Origin: Myxococcota bacterium
GTDB lineage: Bacteria > Myxococcota_C > UBA6777
NCBI GenBank assembly: GCA_023150835.1
Contig: JAKLKB010000195.1
Coordinates: 1 to 7,576, forward strand
Direction: 5' to 3'
DNA length: 7,576 bases
The notes under the pieces were generated by a model. The model was not told the DNA's origin, ran no database searches, and saw only the letters and a program-made list of their open reading frames with translations. Positions 3,046-7,450 of the stretch are shown one piece after another; the stretch's first letter is position 1, and every line of letters starts with the position of its first letter. A program made the translations under genes and the position numbers.

Positions 3046-3170
3046 AAAAAACCCGTGTTCGTGCCGTTTCAAGCGAGAGAGTTATTGGTGTAAAAAACGA
3101 TGATCTTTTCGCCAACACGGGGTCAAGGGGCTATAGCCCCTTGCGGGGTGTGGGGTGGCACCCCACAAAA
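3046..3170 (-). repeat. Dispersed repeat, copy A (minus orientation)
   Basis: Read on the minus strand, this segment aligns without gaps to 4611-4735 on the plus strand. By hand count about 102 of 125 positions agree. It contains a perfect 20-bp palindrome CAAGGGGCTATAGCCCCTTG (3124-3143) and a hairpin GTGGGGT-N3-ACCCCAC (3150-3166). It lies directly downstream of the hydrolase gene, in the same direction. No transposase or coding content is seen, so it is a non-autonomous intergenic repeat of REP or MITE type, or a structured RNA element. Confidence 0.82.
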
Positions 3171-3182
3171 CGATCGAACTGT

Positions 3183-3242
3183 GTCTATCCTCGAATCTTA
3201 CGCGCAACGCGCCTCAAGCCAGCGCAAGATTCGAGGATAGAC
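3183..3242 (-). repeat. Perfect 17-bp inverted repeat spanning the hydrolase stop codon
   Basis: GTCTATCCTCGAATCTT at 3183-3199 is the exact reverse complement of 3226-3242, with a 26-base loop between. One arm encodes residues V-Y-P-R-I-L near the hydrolase C terminus. The loop holds the last codons and the other arm starts within the stop codon. In mRNA it would form a strong hairpin around the stop, possibly a terminator or 3' stability element, although no T tract follows. A snap-back copying event is another origin. Confidence 0.7.
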
Positions 3243-4367
3243 TTCTTCGTGGGCGTGTTTTGCGAAGATCAGTCCGTTGTGGCAATAATCCAATCGCGCC
3301 CCAAAAGATCGCCCCATCACATGAAATTCTTTGCAAGAAGAGCCGATCTTCTCGTAGCCAAGGCGCACTTGTGCAGGAGGGGCCAAGGTGTCGCCTTCCC
3401 CCGCGATACAACACAGCGGCACCCGAACCTTGGCGAGCTCCGCGAGATAATCGATCTTTCCATCCGCCGACAAAAAGCGGCCCGAACGCAACATCTCTAA
3501 AAAAACAGCCGTGATCCGTTCATTGAAGTCTTCGGTCATCACAAACAAGCCGCGCCGAAACACATACGGCTCGATATTTGGGGGATAACTGAAGCCCAGA
3601 TGGATCGGTAGATAAGGGATCAACATCGCCCCGCCACGCGTCAGCCAACGCAATGGAAAAACCGCACAAACCGCAAAGATCAACGGAGCCACCCATGCGA
3701 TCAGTCGATTCGAGAGGCTCGGTGGTAACCCCGCAGGGGAGCCCAAACAGCACAACGAGGCGACGCGTGTTTCTTCGGGATGAAGGCCCAAATAAGCATA
3801 CATCACCAACCCGCCCATCGAATGCCCCACCCAATGCACTACATCAACCCCCGATTCTCTCGTAATATGCGCCAAGATCGCAGGGACATCTCGGCTCGCA
3901 TGATCATCAAAACTCCACAGCGGATCGCTCGGCCCCCCCTCCGCCACAGAACGCGCACGACTCTCCCCGTACCCCCGCAGATCCACATTCCACACCTCAA
4001 AACCATGCCGACAGAAAAATTCGACAAGGCTCGCTCCCGTGATCAGGTCCATATTGCCCCGGTTGGCATTGAATCCGTGGCACGTCACCACCACCGCACG
4101 GCGAAGCCCCTCCGCAGGATGTCGCGCCACCGCCAACGACCACCCGCCTTCCAACACGATCCGATCCACTCGCGGAGCCTGCCGCGCTTCGCCCAACCGA
4201 CGCCCCCCAACCCAAGTAGAAACCATCCACACGATCTCAAAAATACCCAATACTCCGACAAAGATCAAAAGACTCGTCCAAGACCACCACGCCCACAACA
4301 GCACCATCCCCACAAAGGCCAACCATAAAACGACCCGATGAACTCGAATCCGCCGATCCTTCGGCAT
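3198..4367 (-). CDS. Membrane-anchored alpha/beta hydrolase (lipase/esterase-like)
   Basis: The 389-residue protein has two adjoining hydrophobic segments at about residues 11-30 and 31-53, then an alpha/beta-hydrolase domain from about residue 68 to the end. Visible motifs are C-H-G-F-N-A-N-R-G-N (96-105) at the oxyanion hole, V-D-L-R-G-Y-G-E-S-R (128-137), the nucleophile elbow G-H-S-M-G-G (181-186, Ser183), G-E-G-D (323-326, acid candidate Asp326) and D-Y-C-H-N-G (360-365, catalytic His363) followed by E-E-V-Y-P-R-I-L-R-W-L. The complete Ser-Asp-His set suggests an active esterase, lipase or acyltransferase-type enzyme. A lid-like insertion, hydrophobic around 220-250, separates the Ser and Asp motifs. 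AGGAGG at 4373-4378, five bases before the ATG, fixes the start. It has no same-strand neighbour and is flanked by inverted repeats A and B. The substrate cannot be assigned. Confidence 0.9.
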   Translation of the reverse strand: MPKDRRIRVHRVVLWLAFVGMVLLWAWWSWTSLLIFVGVLGIFEIVWMVSTWVGGRRLGEARQAPRVDRIVLEGGWSLAVARHPAEGLRRAVVVTCHGFNANRGNMDLITGASLVEFFCRHGFEVWNVDLRGYGESRARSVAEGGPSDPLWSFDDHASRDVPAILAHITRESGVDVVHWVGHSMGGLVMYAYLGLHPEETRVASLCCLGSPAGLPPSLSNRLIAWVAPLIFAVCAVFPLRWLTRGGAMLIPYLPIHLGFSYPPNIEPYVFRRGLFVMTEDFNERITAVFLEMLRSGRFLSADGKIDYLAELAKVRVPLCCIAGEGDTLAPPAQVRLGYEKIGSSCKEFHVMGRSFGARLDYCHNGLIFAKHAHEEVYPRILRWLEARCA

Positions 4368-4610
4368 CCAAACCTCCTCGTCTCACCGCTCATCCGCATC
4401 TAAGCCACGCACCCACGTCTAAGCCACGCACGATCAGGCTTAAGCGCAGACACTTGATGCGCTCGATCAAGCCCATCGCCGCCCAAAGATGAACATCCCC
4501 CCTCACAACGCAAGCCACACACCCCAGAGATGACAAAACACAGACAAAGATGTGACACGGCAAACGATGGCTGGGTCTTTCTATCTGATCGGAGTGACTT
4601 GTTGAATTCA
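4368..4610. other. Intergenic region upstream of the hydrolase, no gene seen
   Basis: The only structure noted is a 14-bp direct repeat TCTAAGCCACGCAC at 4399-4412 and 4418-4431 (period 19), close upstream of the hydrolase ribosome site, where it could be part of a leader or operator. No convincing promoter pair was recognised for the minus-strand hydrolase gene. Confidence 0.4.
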
Positions 4611-4735
4611 TTTCGTGGGGCGTTGCCCCACACCCCACAAGGGACTTTCGCCCCTTGACCCCGTATCGGCGAAGAGAGCGTCGCTTTTCACACCAACGAC
4701 TCTCTCGCTTGCAAAAGCACGAACTCGGGGTTTTT
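4611..4735 (+). repeat. Dispersed repeat, copy B (plus orientation)
   Basis: This is the inverted counterpart of copy A, ungapped and about 82% identical by hand count. It contains the hairpin GTGGGGC-N3-GCCCCAC (4615-4631), a decayed form of A's 20-bp palindrome (CAAGGG/CCCTTG arms, 4638-4657), and the block A-C-T-C-T-C-T-C-G-C-T-T-G shared with A. It lies between the hydrolase and redoxin genes. A further small stem GCGAC-AA-GTCGC (4737-4748) lies just past its end. The rest of the region to 4820 shows no gene. Confidence 0.82.
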
Positions 4736-4820: not shown

Positions 4821-4826
4821 AAGGAG
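4821..4826 (+). promoter_or_regulatory. Ribosome binding site that selects a TTG start
   Basis: AAGGAG lies seven bases before TTG 4834-4836. No ATG or GTG in this frame is equally well placed, so the redoxin gene most likely begins with the rare TTG start. Confidence 0.75.
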
Positions 4827-4833
4827 CCTCGCC

Positions 4834-5640
4834 TTGACCCCAGATATCCAAATCCTCTTTTCTGCCGTAGGGCTGGGCGTTGTCGTCTTTGGATGGCTGC
4901 ATTACCTCTCCTTGATCGGCAAAGAAAAAGTCCCCAAGCATCCCCAGTTTTCTCTTTCCACGATGCTCGCAGGAAGCCTTCTTTCGCTCGCTCCTTGGAT
5001 GGTGGCTGTTGCCCAACAGCTTCCGCTCTCTCTGTTTGCGGTCTCGCTCTCGATTCGAGCCGTCGGACTGGCCTTGTTTTTCGTGTACCTGTTGCGCCAA
5101 GCCCCACTCCCCGATCAACCGATCCGATTGCAGGTCAACGATCGTTTTCCACCCATCCAAATCGTCGATGCCAACGGGCAATTACGCAACACCCAAGATC
5201 AGCAAGGCCAACGCTTTTTATTCAAGTTCTTTCGCGGCCATTGGTGACCGTACTGTTCCGCCGAGTTGCGGCGGTTTGAACAAATGAAGCCTCTCTTTGA
5301 AACCTACAACGTCGCTGTGTACGCTCTCAGCAAAGACACACCCGCTGAAGCCAAAGCTCACCAAGAACGCGATGCCTTGGGATTTGTGAGACTCTTCTGC
5401 GATCCAGCGATGCGGCATATCCGCGCATTGGGACTAGAGCACCACAAAGCTCTCGAATTCAAAACGTGGGATATCTTGGGCATTCCGCTCGGCTATCCAA
5501 GCGGATTCAAAAGCATGGCGATCCCAACATCCATCCTTGTTGATGAAAACGGAAACGTCCGATGGATCGACCAATCCGACGATTATCGGATGCGGGGCGA
5601 TGCACAGCGCATCCAAGACGCCCTCCTCCAAAGCTTTGGG
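4834..5640 (+). CDS. Selenocysteine-containing membrane redoxin (AhpC/TSA-like, U-x-x-C); 3' end unresolved
   Basis: The frame from TTG 4834 reaches a TGA at 5245-5247 and continues in the same frame as clear redoxin sequence. Read with Sec at codon 138, the active site is F-F-R-G-H-W-U-P-Y-C-S-A-E-L-R, matching the R-G-x-W-C-P-Y-C-x-x-E-L site of AhpC/TSA-like thioredoxin-fold proteins. Three hydrophobic segments (about residues 6-28, 42-61, 66-87) anchor the protein. The domain opens with V-N-D-R-F-P-P-I-Q-I-V-D-A-N-G (101-115). After the active site come R-L-F-C-D-P-A-M-R and the cis-proline segment A-I-P-T-S-I-L-V-D-E-N-G-N-V, usual fold markers. Sec as the attacking residue would suit a thiol peroxidase or oxidoreductase acting at the membrane. 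Typical redoxin sequence ends near 5640, but no in-frame stop occurs there and the frame stays open to 7392. A Cys-to-stop pseudogene is the alternative, less likely because redoxin motifs persist after the TGA. Confidence 0.83.
5245..5247 (+). other. In-frame UGA, probable selenocysteine codon
   Basis: This TGA lies between Trp137 and P-Y-C, exactly where the family has its first active-site cysteine. The codons on both sides are in frame and continue the same domain. Sec insertion would require SelA, SelB, SelC and SelD elsewhere in the genome, which cannot be seen here. Confidence 0.83.
5254..5282 (+). promoter_or_regulatory. Bacterial SECIS-like hairpin after the UGA
   Basis: CCGCCG (5258-5263) pairs perfectly with CGGCGG (5269-5274) around the five-base loop AGTTG. 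A lower stem TGTT/AACA (5254-5257, 5279-5282) pairs across a four-base bulge on the 3' side. The loop begins 16 bases after the UGA and has G as its second base. Both agree with the published bacterial SECIS model (small apical loop, an early G in the loop, UGA-to-loop distance of about 16-37 bases). In bacteria this hairpin recruits SelB with Sec-tRNA. The folding is by eye. Confidence 0.72.
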
Positions 5641-5853
5641 CCCTTAGCACAGAGAGGCCACGCAGTCGGCAAAAGCCCCCATGCCCGGGTGTTTCGTATC
5701 GCTCCTACACAAATCTCCTCCCGCCATCTCTGCTCTCCAACAATTTTTGATAAACCCGCCACCTTGACGACACAGAAAGAACCAGAAAGGCAACAACGCT
5801 TTTCCTTTCATTCTTTATCACAACAACACCCACACCGCCGATGGAGTCAGCCT
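5641..5853 (+). other. Open linker between redoxin and lipoprotein, same frame, low-complexity-like
   Basis: These 71 codons continue the redoxin frame without a stop, but the translation is rich in R, H, S, Q, P and T and resembles no domain. In the +1 frame a TAG appears at 5645-5647, right after the expected redoxin end, so a one-base difference near the GGGCCC at 5638-5643 would restore a normal stop. No clear terminator or promoter is seen; TTGACG at 5764-5769 has no good -10. It may therefore be intergenic DNA open by chance, or a true linker in a fusion of about 852 residues. Confidence 0.5.
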
Positions 5854-7392
5854 ATGCGCACACCTACGCATCTGTACCTACCCTTTTGTCTGTTTTTTCT
5901 CGGAGGTTGCTGCACCTTGCCTGCCCCCCTCAACTTAACGGCCCCTGCGGATCTTCCGGCACATGTTTATTTCCGAACCCGCACAGAAACCTTTAACAAG
6001 AATTATGTTCTCGCTCTACGCGACGGGCGGATCTGGTACAAACACAACGTAGAAAATACCCAAAAAAGCAGCGATTGGAAATTGCTTGGGCGAACAGGAA
6101 GGCCCGAAGGATGCGGGTTGTCGAAGTTTGGCGTCCCCAAAAACCTCGTGTCGCTGTCTGCGGATGGTATCCATCTTCAAGTTCTAGGGGAAAATCAGGT
6201 CATTTATCGCGCCACCAATCTTCGAGAAGATATCGAAAAAGGGGTGGAATGGAACGATAGTTGGGGATGGCCGATGGCCGGTGGACCCGGACTCAAAAGC
6301 GAGTGGGGGTCTCAAACAATCTGGGATGTCGCAGATGCCCACACCTTCGACCTCAAATACTACGAAGACGCCAACGGAACACGCCATCACATCGGCTTGG
6401 GCGTTGCGCACATCTACGTGCTCGATCCCGAAAAGAAAAAGATCCATTACAACGACTGGTGGCTGCCTGCGGATTGGAGCCGCCAAGTGTGCGGCCCCCA
6501 ACGCGGAACCTTCAAAGCGATCCAGATGAGCGTTAGCGGTTCGACACTCTTCGTGATCAACCAACAGGGCGAGATGTTTACACGCCTCTATGACTTCGAT
6601 ACCTCGGGAGAAAACCCCTTCCTGACTTATACATTCGTCCAAACACAACCCGCCCCTCACGTTCGCCGTATCCCGATCCCTGACTGGCACCGCCAGCCTG
6701 CGATCTCGTCGGGACGCATCACCTCGCGCATCACCATATTTCAAGACGGCGAAGGCAACGCAGCGCGAACGCTTCGGGTGGAAGGCGAACAAAACGGCGT
6801 GGCCGGCTTTTTTCACAAAAAGATCTTCGCGCCAACTTGGGCGTTTCAAGCAACGCACCACACGATCAAAACTCCCTTCCTTTCGGACACAACGCAACCT
6901 GCTCCCCAATCCACGTTCACCAACGCCGAAGAGATCCGCTACAGCGGAACCCTTCGGCGCGAAGATCTCGGTCGCACGCTACAAGTCGAATTCCAAGGCT
7001 TCCACTTTGTCTGCTCTCCTTCTTCCTTGCGCGTCCTATTTGAGGGAAAACCTGTTTTGCAAAAAGACGGAACCCCCTTGTTGCTCACCTTTCACCACGT
7101 CCACACGATGGTCACACAGATCCGTCCCCGCGACTATTGGCAAAAAGGCACCAAGGCCCCCATCCGCGCAGGCTTAATTTCTCCAAAGGATTTCTCTGTT
7201 ATCTCAAACGATCAAGCGCGCACGATGCTTCGCGAATTTTTCGGCGACCTCTCCGTCATCAATCTGAGCGGCGAAGCCTCCACACAAACCCTGAAAATGA
7301 AAGAGCTTACACGCGGCGAACTCTTCCGCGCACCCGACGAAGAAAAAGCCCACACCGCTCGCTTTGTACTGGACCTTTCCGTCGCAAAATAA
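5854..7392 (+). CDS. Lipoprotein of unknown family
   Basis: The 512-residue product starts at ATG 5854 with GGAG at 5843-5846. The N terminus is a lipoprotein signal: a hydrophobic stretch ending L-G-G-C with Cys19 as the lipidated residue, then a second Cys20 and a proline-rich tether. This signal in mid-frame is the best argument that translation restarts here rather than running on from the redoxin. The mature part is rich in beta-strand-like and aromatic sequence, for example Y-V-L-A-L-R-D-G-R-I-W-Y-K, H-I-Y-V-L-D-P-E-K-K-K-I-H-Y and T-L-F-V-I-N-Q-Q-G-E-M-F, which recall blades of a beta-propeller, but no repeat register was established. No catalytic motif is recognised. It shares frame and strand with the redoxin and is probably co-transcribed, which suggests an envelope role. 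A stop at 7390-7392 is followed by repeat copy C. Confidence 0.78.
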   Translation: MRTPTHLYLPFCLFFLGGCCTLPAPLNLTAPADLPAHVYFRTRTETFNKNYVLALRDGRIWYKHNVENTQKSSDWKLLGRTGRPEGCGLSKFGVPKNLVSLSADGIHLQVLGENQVIYRATNLREDIEKGVEWNDSWGWPMAGGPGLKSEWGSQTIWDVADAHTFDLKYYEDANGTRHHIGLGVAHIYVLDPEKKKIHYNDWWLPADWSRQVCGPQRGTFKAIQMSVSGSTLFVINQQGEMFTRLYDFDTSGENPFLTYTFVQTQPAPHVRRIPIPDWHRQPAISSGRITSRITIFQDGEGNAARTLRVEGEQNGVAGFFHKKIFAPTWAFQATHHTIKTPFLSDTTQPAPQSTFTNAEEIRYSGTLRREDLGRTLQVEFQGFHFVCSPSSLRVLFEGKPVLQKDGTPLLLTFHHVHTMVTQIRPRDYWQKGTKAPIRAGLISPKDFSVISNDQARTMLREFFGDLSVINLSGEASTQTLKMKELTRGELFRAPDEEKAHTARFVLDLSVAK

Positions 7393-7410: not shown

Positions 7411-7450
7411 GTGGTGGGGCTTTGCCCCACGCCCCACAAGGGCTTTCTCT
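7411..7450 (+). repeat. Dispersed repeat, partial copy C
   Basis: This matches the first third of copies A and B: hairpin GTGGGGC-TTT-GCCCCAC (7414-7430), then C-C-C-C-A-C-A-A-G-G-G and a second stem CAAGGG/CTCTTG (7436-7441, 7446-7451) with one G-T pair. Similarity fades after about 7450. It lies 19 bases past the lipoprotein stop, where the hairpins could help end or protect the transcript. Confidence 0.7.

Follow-up and report, generated by a model that had tools for sequence, protein, structure and literature searches.

Reading frame and in-frame UGA

The window analysed here is a stretch of 7,576 nucleotides from a Myxococcota bacterium (contig JAKLKB010000195.1, forward strand). It raises one question: does the TGA at 5245-5247, which lies in the middle of a redoxin gene, terminate a short protein, or is it decoded as selenocysteine (Sec)? 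In the frame 4834-7392, this TGA is the sole stop before the TAA at 7390. An earlier, sequence-only reading had taken the segments on either side as one gene, and we found that their frames are identical, (5245-4834)/3 being exactly 137 codons. One redoxin domain spans the TGA, as that reading had also held: a single Pfam AhpC-TSA match (PF00578) covers residues 101-244 with an E of 5e-19, and its score of 68.8 bits is above the gathering score of 26. When the TGA is translated as U, it takes the first position of the motif WUPYC (...KFFRGHW-U-PYCSAELRRF...). The same column is Cys in homologues, with TGC in the locus L040 and WCPFC or WCPLC in more distant proteins. A mechanical ORF call split the gene just as had been predicted, into a 137-aa product at 4834-5247 and, at 5266-7392, an ORF with a false TTG start. 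The features of the frame are as follows.

4821..4826, + strand: Shine-Dalgarno-like AAGGAG, 7 nt 5' of the TTG start, from the sequence; AAGGAG-N7-TTG is also found at the sister locus L021
4834..5643, + strand: gene for a membrane-anchored redoxin, very probably a selenoprotein; begins with TTG and counts 270 codons, a single in-frame UGA among them, until the conserved domain ends
5245..5247, + strand: UGA, read as selenocysteine U138; TGC in L040

Conservation of the UGA in relatives

The UGA was present at the same codon in 34/34 non-redundant homologues inspected, which came from at least three bacterial groups. Within the window's own small phylum (five genomes examined), one sister encodes a 94% identical protein, and the proteins of two more distant relatives are 55% and 47% identical; all three genes have TGA at this codon. 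Genome contigs were also scanned; of the seven loci obtained, all of which had TGA there, three were the own-phylum relatives already known and four were new. For the phylum of one of these loci, 377 genomes were scanned and 69 had a match; among the 70 matches at E <= 1e-35, exactly one TGA was present in 69 and none in the remaining one. A match containing one TGA also came from each of five alphaproteobacterial genomes. The UGA form was carried, too, by a single MAG with the label Actinomycetota, alone among 296 genomes of its phylum.

These relatives bear on the possibility that the gene is a pseudogene formed by a nonsense mutation, or that TGT or TGC was turned into TGA by an error in sequencing or assembly. 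In the contig, the normal stop is also lost from the same gene, so that a nearby error or decay is conceivable. Decay, however, gives random stops, which the sequence-only reading had named as evidence against recoding, and the relatives show instead one stop at one fixed codon. The same TGA, in an otherwise intact frame, is found in the sister and in 33 other relatives, the most distant at 27% identity, and compensatory changes keep the hairpin described below. A pseudogene or an error is thus very improbable.

A SECIS hairpin downstream of the UGA

The hairpin CCGCCG-AGTTG-CGGCGG, noticed in the sequence-only reading, was confirmed at 5258-5274. It starts 10 nt after the UGA, its loop lies 16 nt after the UGA, and the second loop base is G.

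5258-5263 / 5269-5274, + strand: putative bacterial SECIS hairpin, stem of 6 bp, loop AGUUG at 5264-5268; by folding, covariation and a codon-preserving null

In PMC13188914, the bacterial SECIS model is given as a loop of 3-9 nt with G in the first two loop positions, a stem of 4-16 bp, a spacing of 16-37 nt and an MFE <= -7.5. The window hairpin satisfies every rule (loop 5, G second, stem 6 bp, spacing 16, MFE -12.1), with its 16-nt spacing at the lower limit of the model. Taken alone it is weak evidence: of the 189 TGA triplets in the two strands of the window, 9 have a hairpin that fits the rules, and with a folding z-score of just -1.1 this one is unremarkable. The z-scores of single hairpins ranged from -1.1 to -1.9, none being significant alone; a codon-preserving covariation test was therefore used. 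An extension of the stem below 5258-5274 was considered and rejected, as the extra pairs are not conserved in the family. When the window was scanned with Rfam, no match reached threshold.

The covariation set consisted of 27 distinct 36-mers, representing 35 sequences including that of the window, and the null came from 5000 trials in which synonymous codons were redrawn according to how often these genes use them. Watson-Crick pairs occupied 160/162 stem cells in the 27 distinct sequences, against a null mean of about 90 and a maximum of 109 in the 5000 trials. The closing pair 14-30, which links a second codon position with a synonymous third position, was C-G in 7, G-C in 7 and U-A in 13 of them. 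In the tree, C-G and G-C alternate inside clades (L028 and L029 are sisters), and the changes at the closing pair are therefore not one event. The Leu codon in the loop was UUG or UUA in 34/34 genes, whereas these two codons make up 10% of the Leu codons in the rest of these genes. Judged from these sequences, the conservation of the UGA and the covariation of the stem put the recoding signal far beyond chance.

Selenocysteine machinery and a Cys homologue

Recoding by selenocysteine calls attention to selA, selB, selC and selD, which the sequence-only reading had proposed to look for; all four are present in the window's own genome. The tRNA-Sec has the anticodon UCA and scored 70.6 bits (cut-off 47), while selA, selB and selD were found with E values of 7e-154, 1e-99 and 6e-114. 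The selD gene (L017, 1501-2427, same genome as the window) itself has an in-frame UGA in the context CAG-U-ASK, the known UxxK motif. The genome therefore holds at least two selenoprotein genes.

Across one phylum, selA was present in 60/62 genomes with the UGA form vs 181/315 others (Fisher p 6e-11, uncorrected for kinship). The two UGA-form genomes without a selA match, G009 and G201, may both be incomplete. selB was found in 8/8 genomes tested, 7 of which hold the redoxin gene. G003, a genome from the window's family, has SelB and gave no redoxin match at E <= 1e-20, which indicates that a genome can keep Sec decoding where the redoxin is lost or escapes detection.

L040 is the only close Cys homologue. 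It has TGC at the Sec codon and CPFC in place of UPYC, and its hairpin is destroyed, with 2/6 stem pairs left. selA was undetected in its genome, and in the tree L040 is nested inside the Sec clade. Together, the nesting, the lost hairpin and the undetected selA suggest that Cys replaced Sec in this lineage after loss of the machinery.

The frame would be open under any decoding of UGA, including a genome-wide reading as tryptophan or another residue, or near-cognate readthrough, in either case independent of selenium. Such a reading would leave unexplained why a single UGA is fixed at the cysteine position of a CxxC, and also the tRNA-Sec, SelA, SelB and SelD, the covarying hairpin and the Cys homologue; we regard it as the least probable of all the alternatives, below even a pseudogene or error. 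None of the three refuting observations named in the sequence-only reading holds. The Sec machinery in the genome, the fixed codon in relatives and the TGC of the Cys homologue support the selenocysteine interpretation first put forward from the window's letters, and the TGA in the middle of the gene is almost certainly decoded as selenocysteine at the active site of the redoxin.

Predicted membrane anchor, fold and active site

The protein was modelled with AlphaFold2 (pLDDT 94.7). The model has three N-terminal helices of 22-26 residues followed by a thioredoxin-fold domain, and U138 sits directly before the helix 139-150.

4840..4917, + strand: transmembrane helix 1, residues 3-28, predicted from the AlphaFold2 model and hydropathy
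4945..5013, + strand: transmembrane helix 2, residues 38-60, predicted likewise
5032..5097, + strand: transmembrane helix 3, residues 67-88, predicted likewise
5134..5565, + strand: AhpC-TSA / peroxiredoxin-like domain, residues 101-244 by Pfam; to 270 in the model
5245..5256, + strand: UxxC redox motif U138-P139-Y140-C141
5524..5529, + strand: P231-T232, presumed cis-Pro loop of the thioredoxin fold, invariant in 35 rows

In the loop that joins helix 1 to helix 2 (residues 27-38), K or R occurs in 35/35 rows of the alignment; in the one that joins helix 2 to helix 3, it occurs in 5/35. By the positive-inside rule, this distribution predicts an N-out, C-in topology with a redoxin domain that faces the cytoplasm. 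W137, U/C138, P139, C141, E144, P231, T232, D246, Q247, Y251 and R254 are invariant in the 35 rows, and the UxxC motif varies only in Y/F and in the Cys form, L040.

The closest folds to the predicted model are the peroxiredoxins Bcp/PrxQ and AhpE (Z 20-22); with Bcp4 (3hjp), 157 residues from the region 98-270 were aligned with a Z of 21.9 and an rmsd of 2.2. The best PDB match by sequence is ResA (4nmu, E 3e-12), and U138 aligns with the first cysteine of its CxxC. In the Bcp alignment (2cx3), C141 is at the peroxidatic Cys. The sequence-only reading had proposed to look for Cys or Sec in the UGA column of related families; the Sec stands at the first CxxC position, as in ResA, whereas in true peroxiredoxins it is C141 that the peroxidatic Cys matches. 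Three residues before C141, Sec is found in 34/35 rows and Cys in 1/35, with no Thr or Ser. Of the two marks of a TxxC/TxxU peroxiredoxin, the protein has the fold (Bcp4, as above) and lacks the Thr/Ser three residues before the peroxidatic Cys.

These comparisons bear on the substrate, within the selenoprotein explanation. The protein may work mainly as a membrane-associated, peroxiredoxin-like peroxidase and not as a thiol-disulfide oxidoreductase, since its best structural neighbours (Bcp4, Bcp1 and AhpE) are peroxiredoxins and C141 aligns with the peroxidatic Cys of PrxQ/Bcp. On the other side, the threonine of the Prx TxxC is replaced by Sec, the UxxC is as in ResA and thioredoxin, the best PDB sequence match is ResA, and a shared fold is no proof of function. 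To a mainly peroxidase role we give slightly less than an even chance.

Place among known redoxins and selenoproteins

Selenoproteins of the Prx-like kind with UxxC were known by 2005 at the latest, and PMC1088965 describes a thioredoxin-like UXXC where Sec-Prx has TXXU. Prx-like selenoproteins also appear in PMC2398784 and in Table 1 of PMC13188914. By domain and motif, the window protein is a member of this Prx-like UxxC kind. The published representative sequence, WP_010940744.1, was outside the comparison, and therefore no new family is claimed.

With the Prx-like thiol:disulfide oxidoreductase selenoproteins (PF00578, UxxC), the window protein shares the AhpC/TSA domain, Sec as the first residue of UxxC, a bacterial SECIS just downstream and the existence of Cys homologues; it differs in its three N-terminal transmembrane helices and in the motif WUPYC. 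With oxidoreductases of the ResA/TlpA type it shares the alignment of Sec with the first Cys of the ResA CxxC. ResA and TlpA are periplasmic and have one anchor, whereas the window protein has three helices, a redoxin predicted to be cytoplasmic, and Sec for Cys. PrxQ/Bcp and AhpE peroxiredoxins are closest in fold, with C141 on the peroxidatic Cys of 2cx3, but the window protein has Sec for the TxxC threonine, and a membrane anchor. Sec-containing Prx (TxxU) are AhpC/TSA selenoproteins too, with Sec at the second, peroxidatic position; in the window protein it is at the first.

All 35 members of the family match the SelL-related NCBIfam model NF040769 weakly (best 1e-10). The SelL-like membership raised by the sequence-only reading was not borne out, as the window protein scored 32.5 bits vs a cut-off of 120. 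All NCBIfam scores listed for the window protein, including the SelL-related one, are far below the cut-offs. With no curated NCBI model at cut-off, such genes are likely to appear in annotations as two, a shortened membrane protein and a redoxin without its head.

A literature search for UPYC together with selenoprotein found nothing, and one for Prx-like with transmembrane or fusion found nothing relevant; both are weak evidence, as subscription papers were mostly outside the search. In the passages of the literature covered, no description was found of the three-helix anchor or of the scarcity of close Cys forms. The chances are about even that these proteins form a widespread, undescribed subfamily of three-helix membrane-anchored redoxins in which Sec is nearly obligatory (69/70 close homologues, one phylum), with a redox site on the cytoplasmic side of the membrane.

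The 3' end of the gene and other features of the window

No stop occurs at 5248-7389, and the redoxin frame runs into a lipoprotein-like gene, to 7392; since the frame is open past the domain, the true C-terminus is uncertain. A fusion of the selenoprotein to the following lipoprotein-like sequence in its own genome would account for this open frame. In the sister genome, however, the redoxin has a stop and is followed by map (methionine aminopeptidase) and then by a separate lipoprotein gene. Compared with L021, the window has one extra G in the run 5638-5640, which puts the immediate TAG at 5645-5647 out of frame. The roughly 70 residues at the junction look as though they were translated from DNA that used to lie between genes, and the lipoprotein has a start and a signal sequence of its own. 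map is absent at the window locus (region 5638-5853), and the nearest copy in the own genome is 36% identical. A fusion is therefore unlikely, and from the extra G and the gene order of the sister genome, the long ORF most plausibly reflects the loss of a stop codon or an erroneous indel, and should not be taken as an established fusion.

The window has further features. Near its left end lie two identical 31-nt direct repeats, GCAGAGAAGAACATATATATACATCGTATAT, at 129-159 and 197-227, 68 nt apart. They are upstream of a MazE-like antitoxin gene that the end of the contig truncates (1-87, - strand; Pfam MazE_antitoxin, 25.6 bits) and look like operator sites of a toxin-antitoxin operon. An ADP-ribosylglycohydrolase is encoded at 324-1118 on the - strand (PF03747, E 3e-36), and a secreted Cys-rich lipoprotein at 1427-2926 on the + strand. 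The lipoprotein combines a Laminin_G_3 domain with copper-binding motifs like those of MopE, and its gene has an internal repeat, about 69 nt in length. At the 3' end of a minus-strand hydrolase gene (3198-4367) there is an inverted repeat at 3183-3242 (21 nt, 95% complementary, 18 nt apart), possibly a terminator. A dispersed intergenic repeat, GTGGGGCGTTGCCCCACACCCCACAAGGG, is found at 4615-4643 and 7414-7442; the inverted pair 3046-3173 / 4608-4735 (128 nt, 81% complementary) belongs to the same repeat, a short piece of which precedes the redoxin in the sister genome too.

Proposed mechanism and implications

The sequence and the comparison with relatives show a recoding signal, the machinery to decode it and selection on Sec. 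We propose that SelB with Sec-tRNA(Sec) would bind the mRNA hairpin 10 nt past the UGA at 5245, so that selenocysteine would be inserted there in place of termination, and the product would be a selenoprotein of about 270 residues. Its three N-terminal transmembrane helices would hold the peroxiredoxin/ResA-like domain at the cytoplasmic face of the membrane. We infer an enzymatic activity in which Sec138-Pro-Tyr-Cys141 would act as the redox pair: attack by the selenolate on a peroxide or a disulfide, at the membrane or close to it, would lead to a selenenylsulfide between Sec and C141, which a thioredoxin-like thiol would then reduce. This Sec-Cys chemistry is likely, though we hold it with less confidence than the recoding itself. 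Inspection of 13 loci by eye gave no conserved gene neighbourhood that hints at a substrate.

Scores of bacterial genomes hold relatives with the same recoded codon, in a family where Sec has very seldom been lost. The family supplies a clean collection of bacterial SECIS elements whose stems covary under the constraint of coding for protein, and L036, L030 and L034 together with L040 form a natural Sec/Cys pair for testing what selenium contributes to a membrane redoxin. If the three-helix subfamily is real, it might serve, for example, in the reduction of lipid hydroperoxides or of disulfides in membrane proteins.
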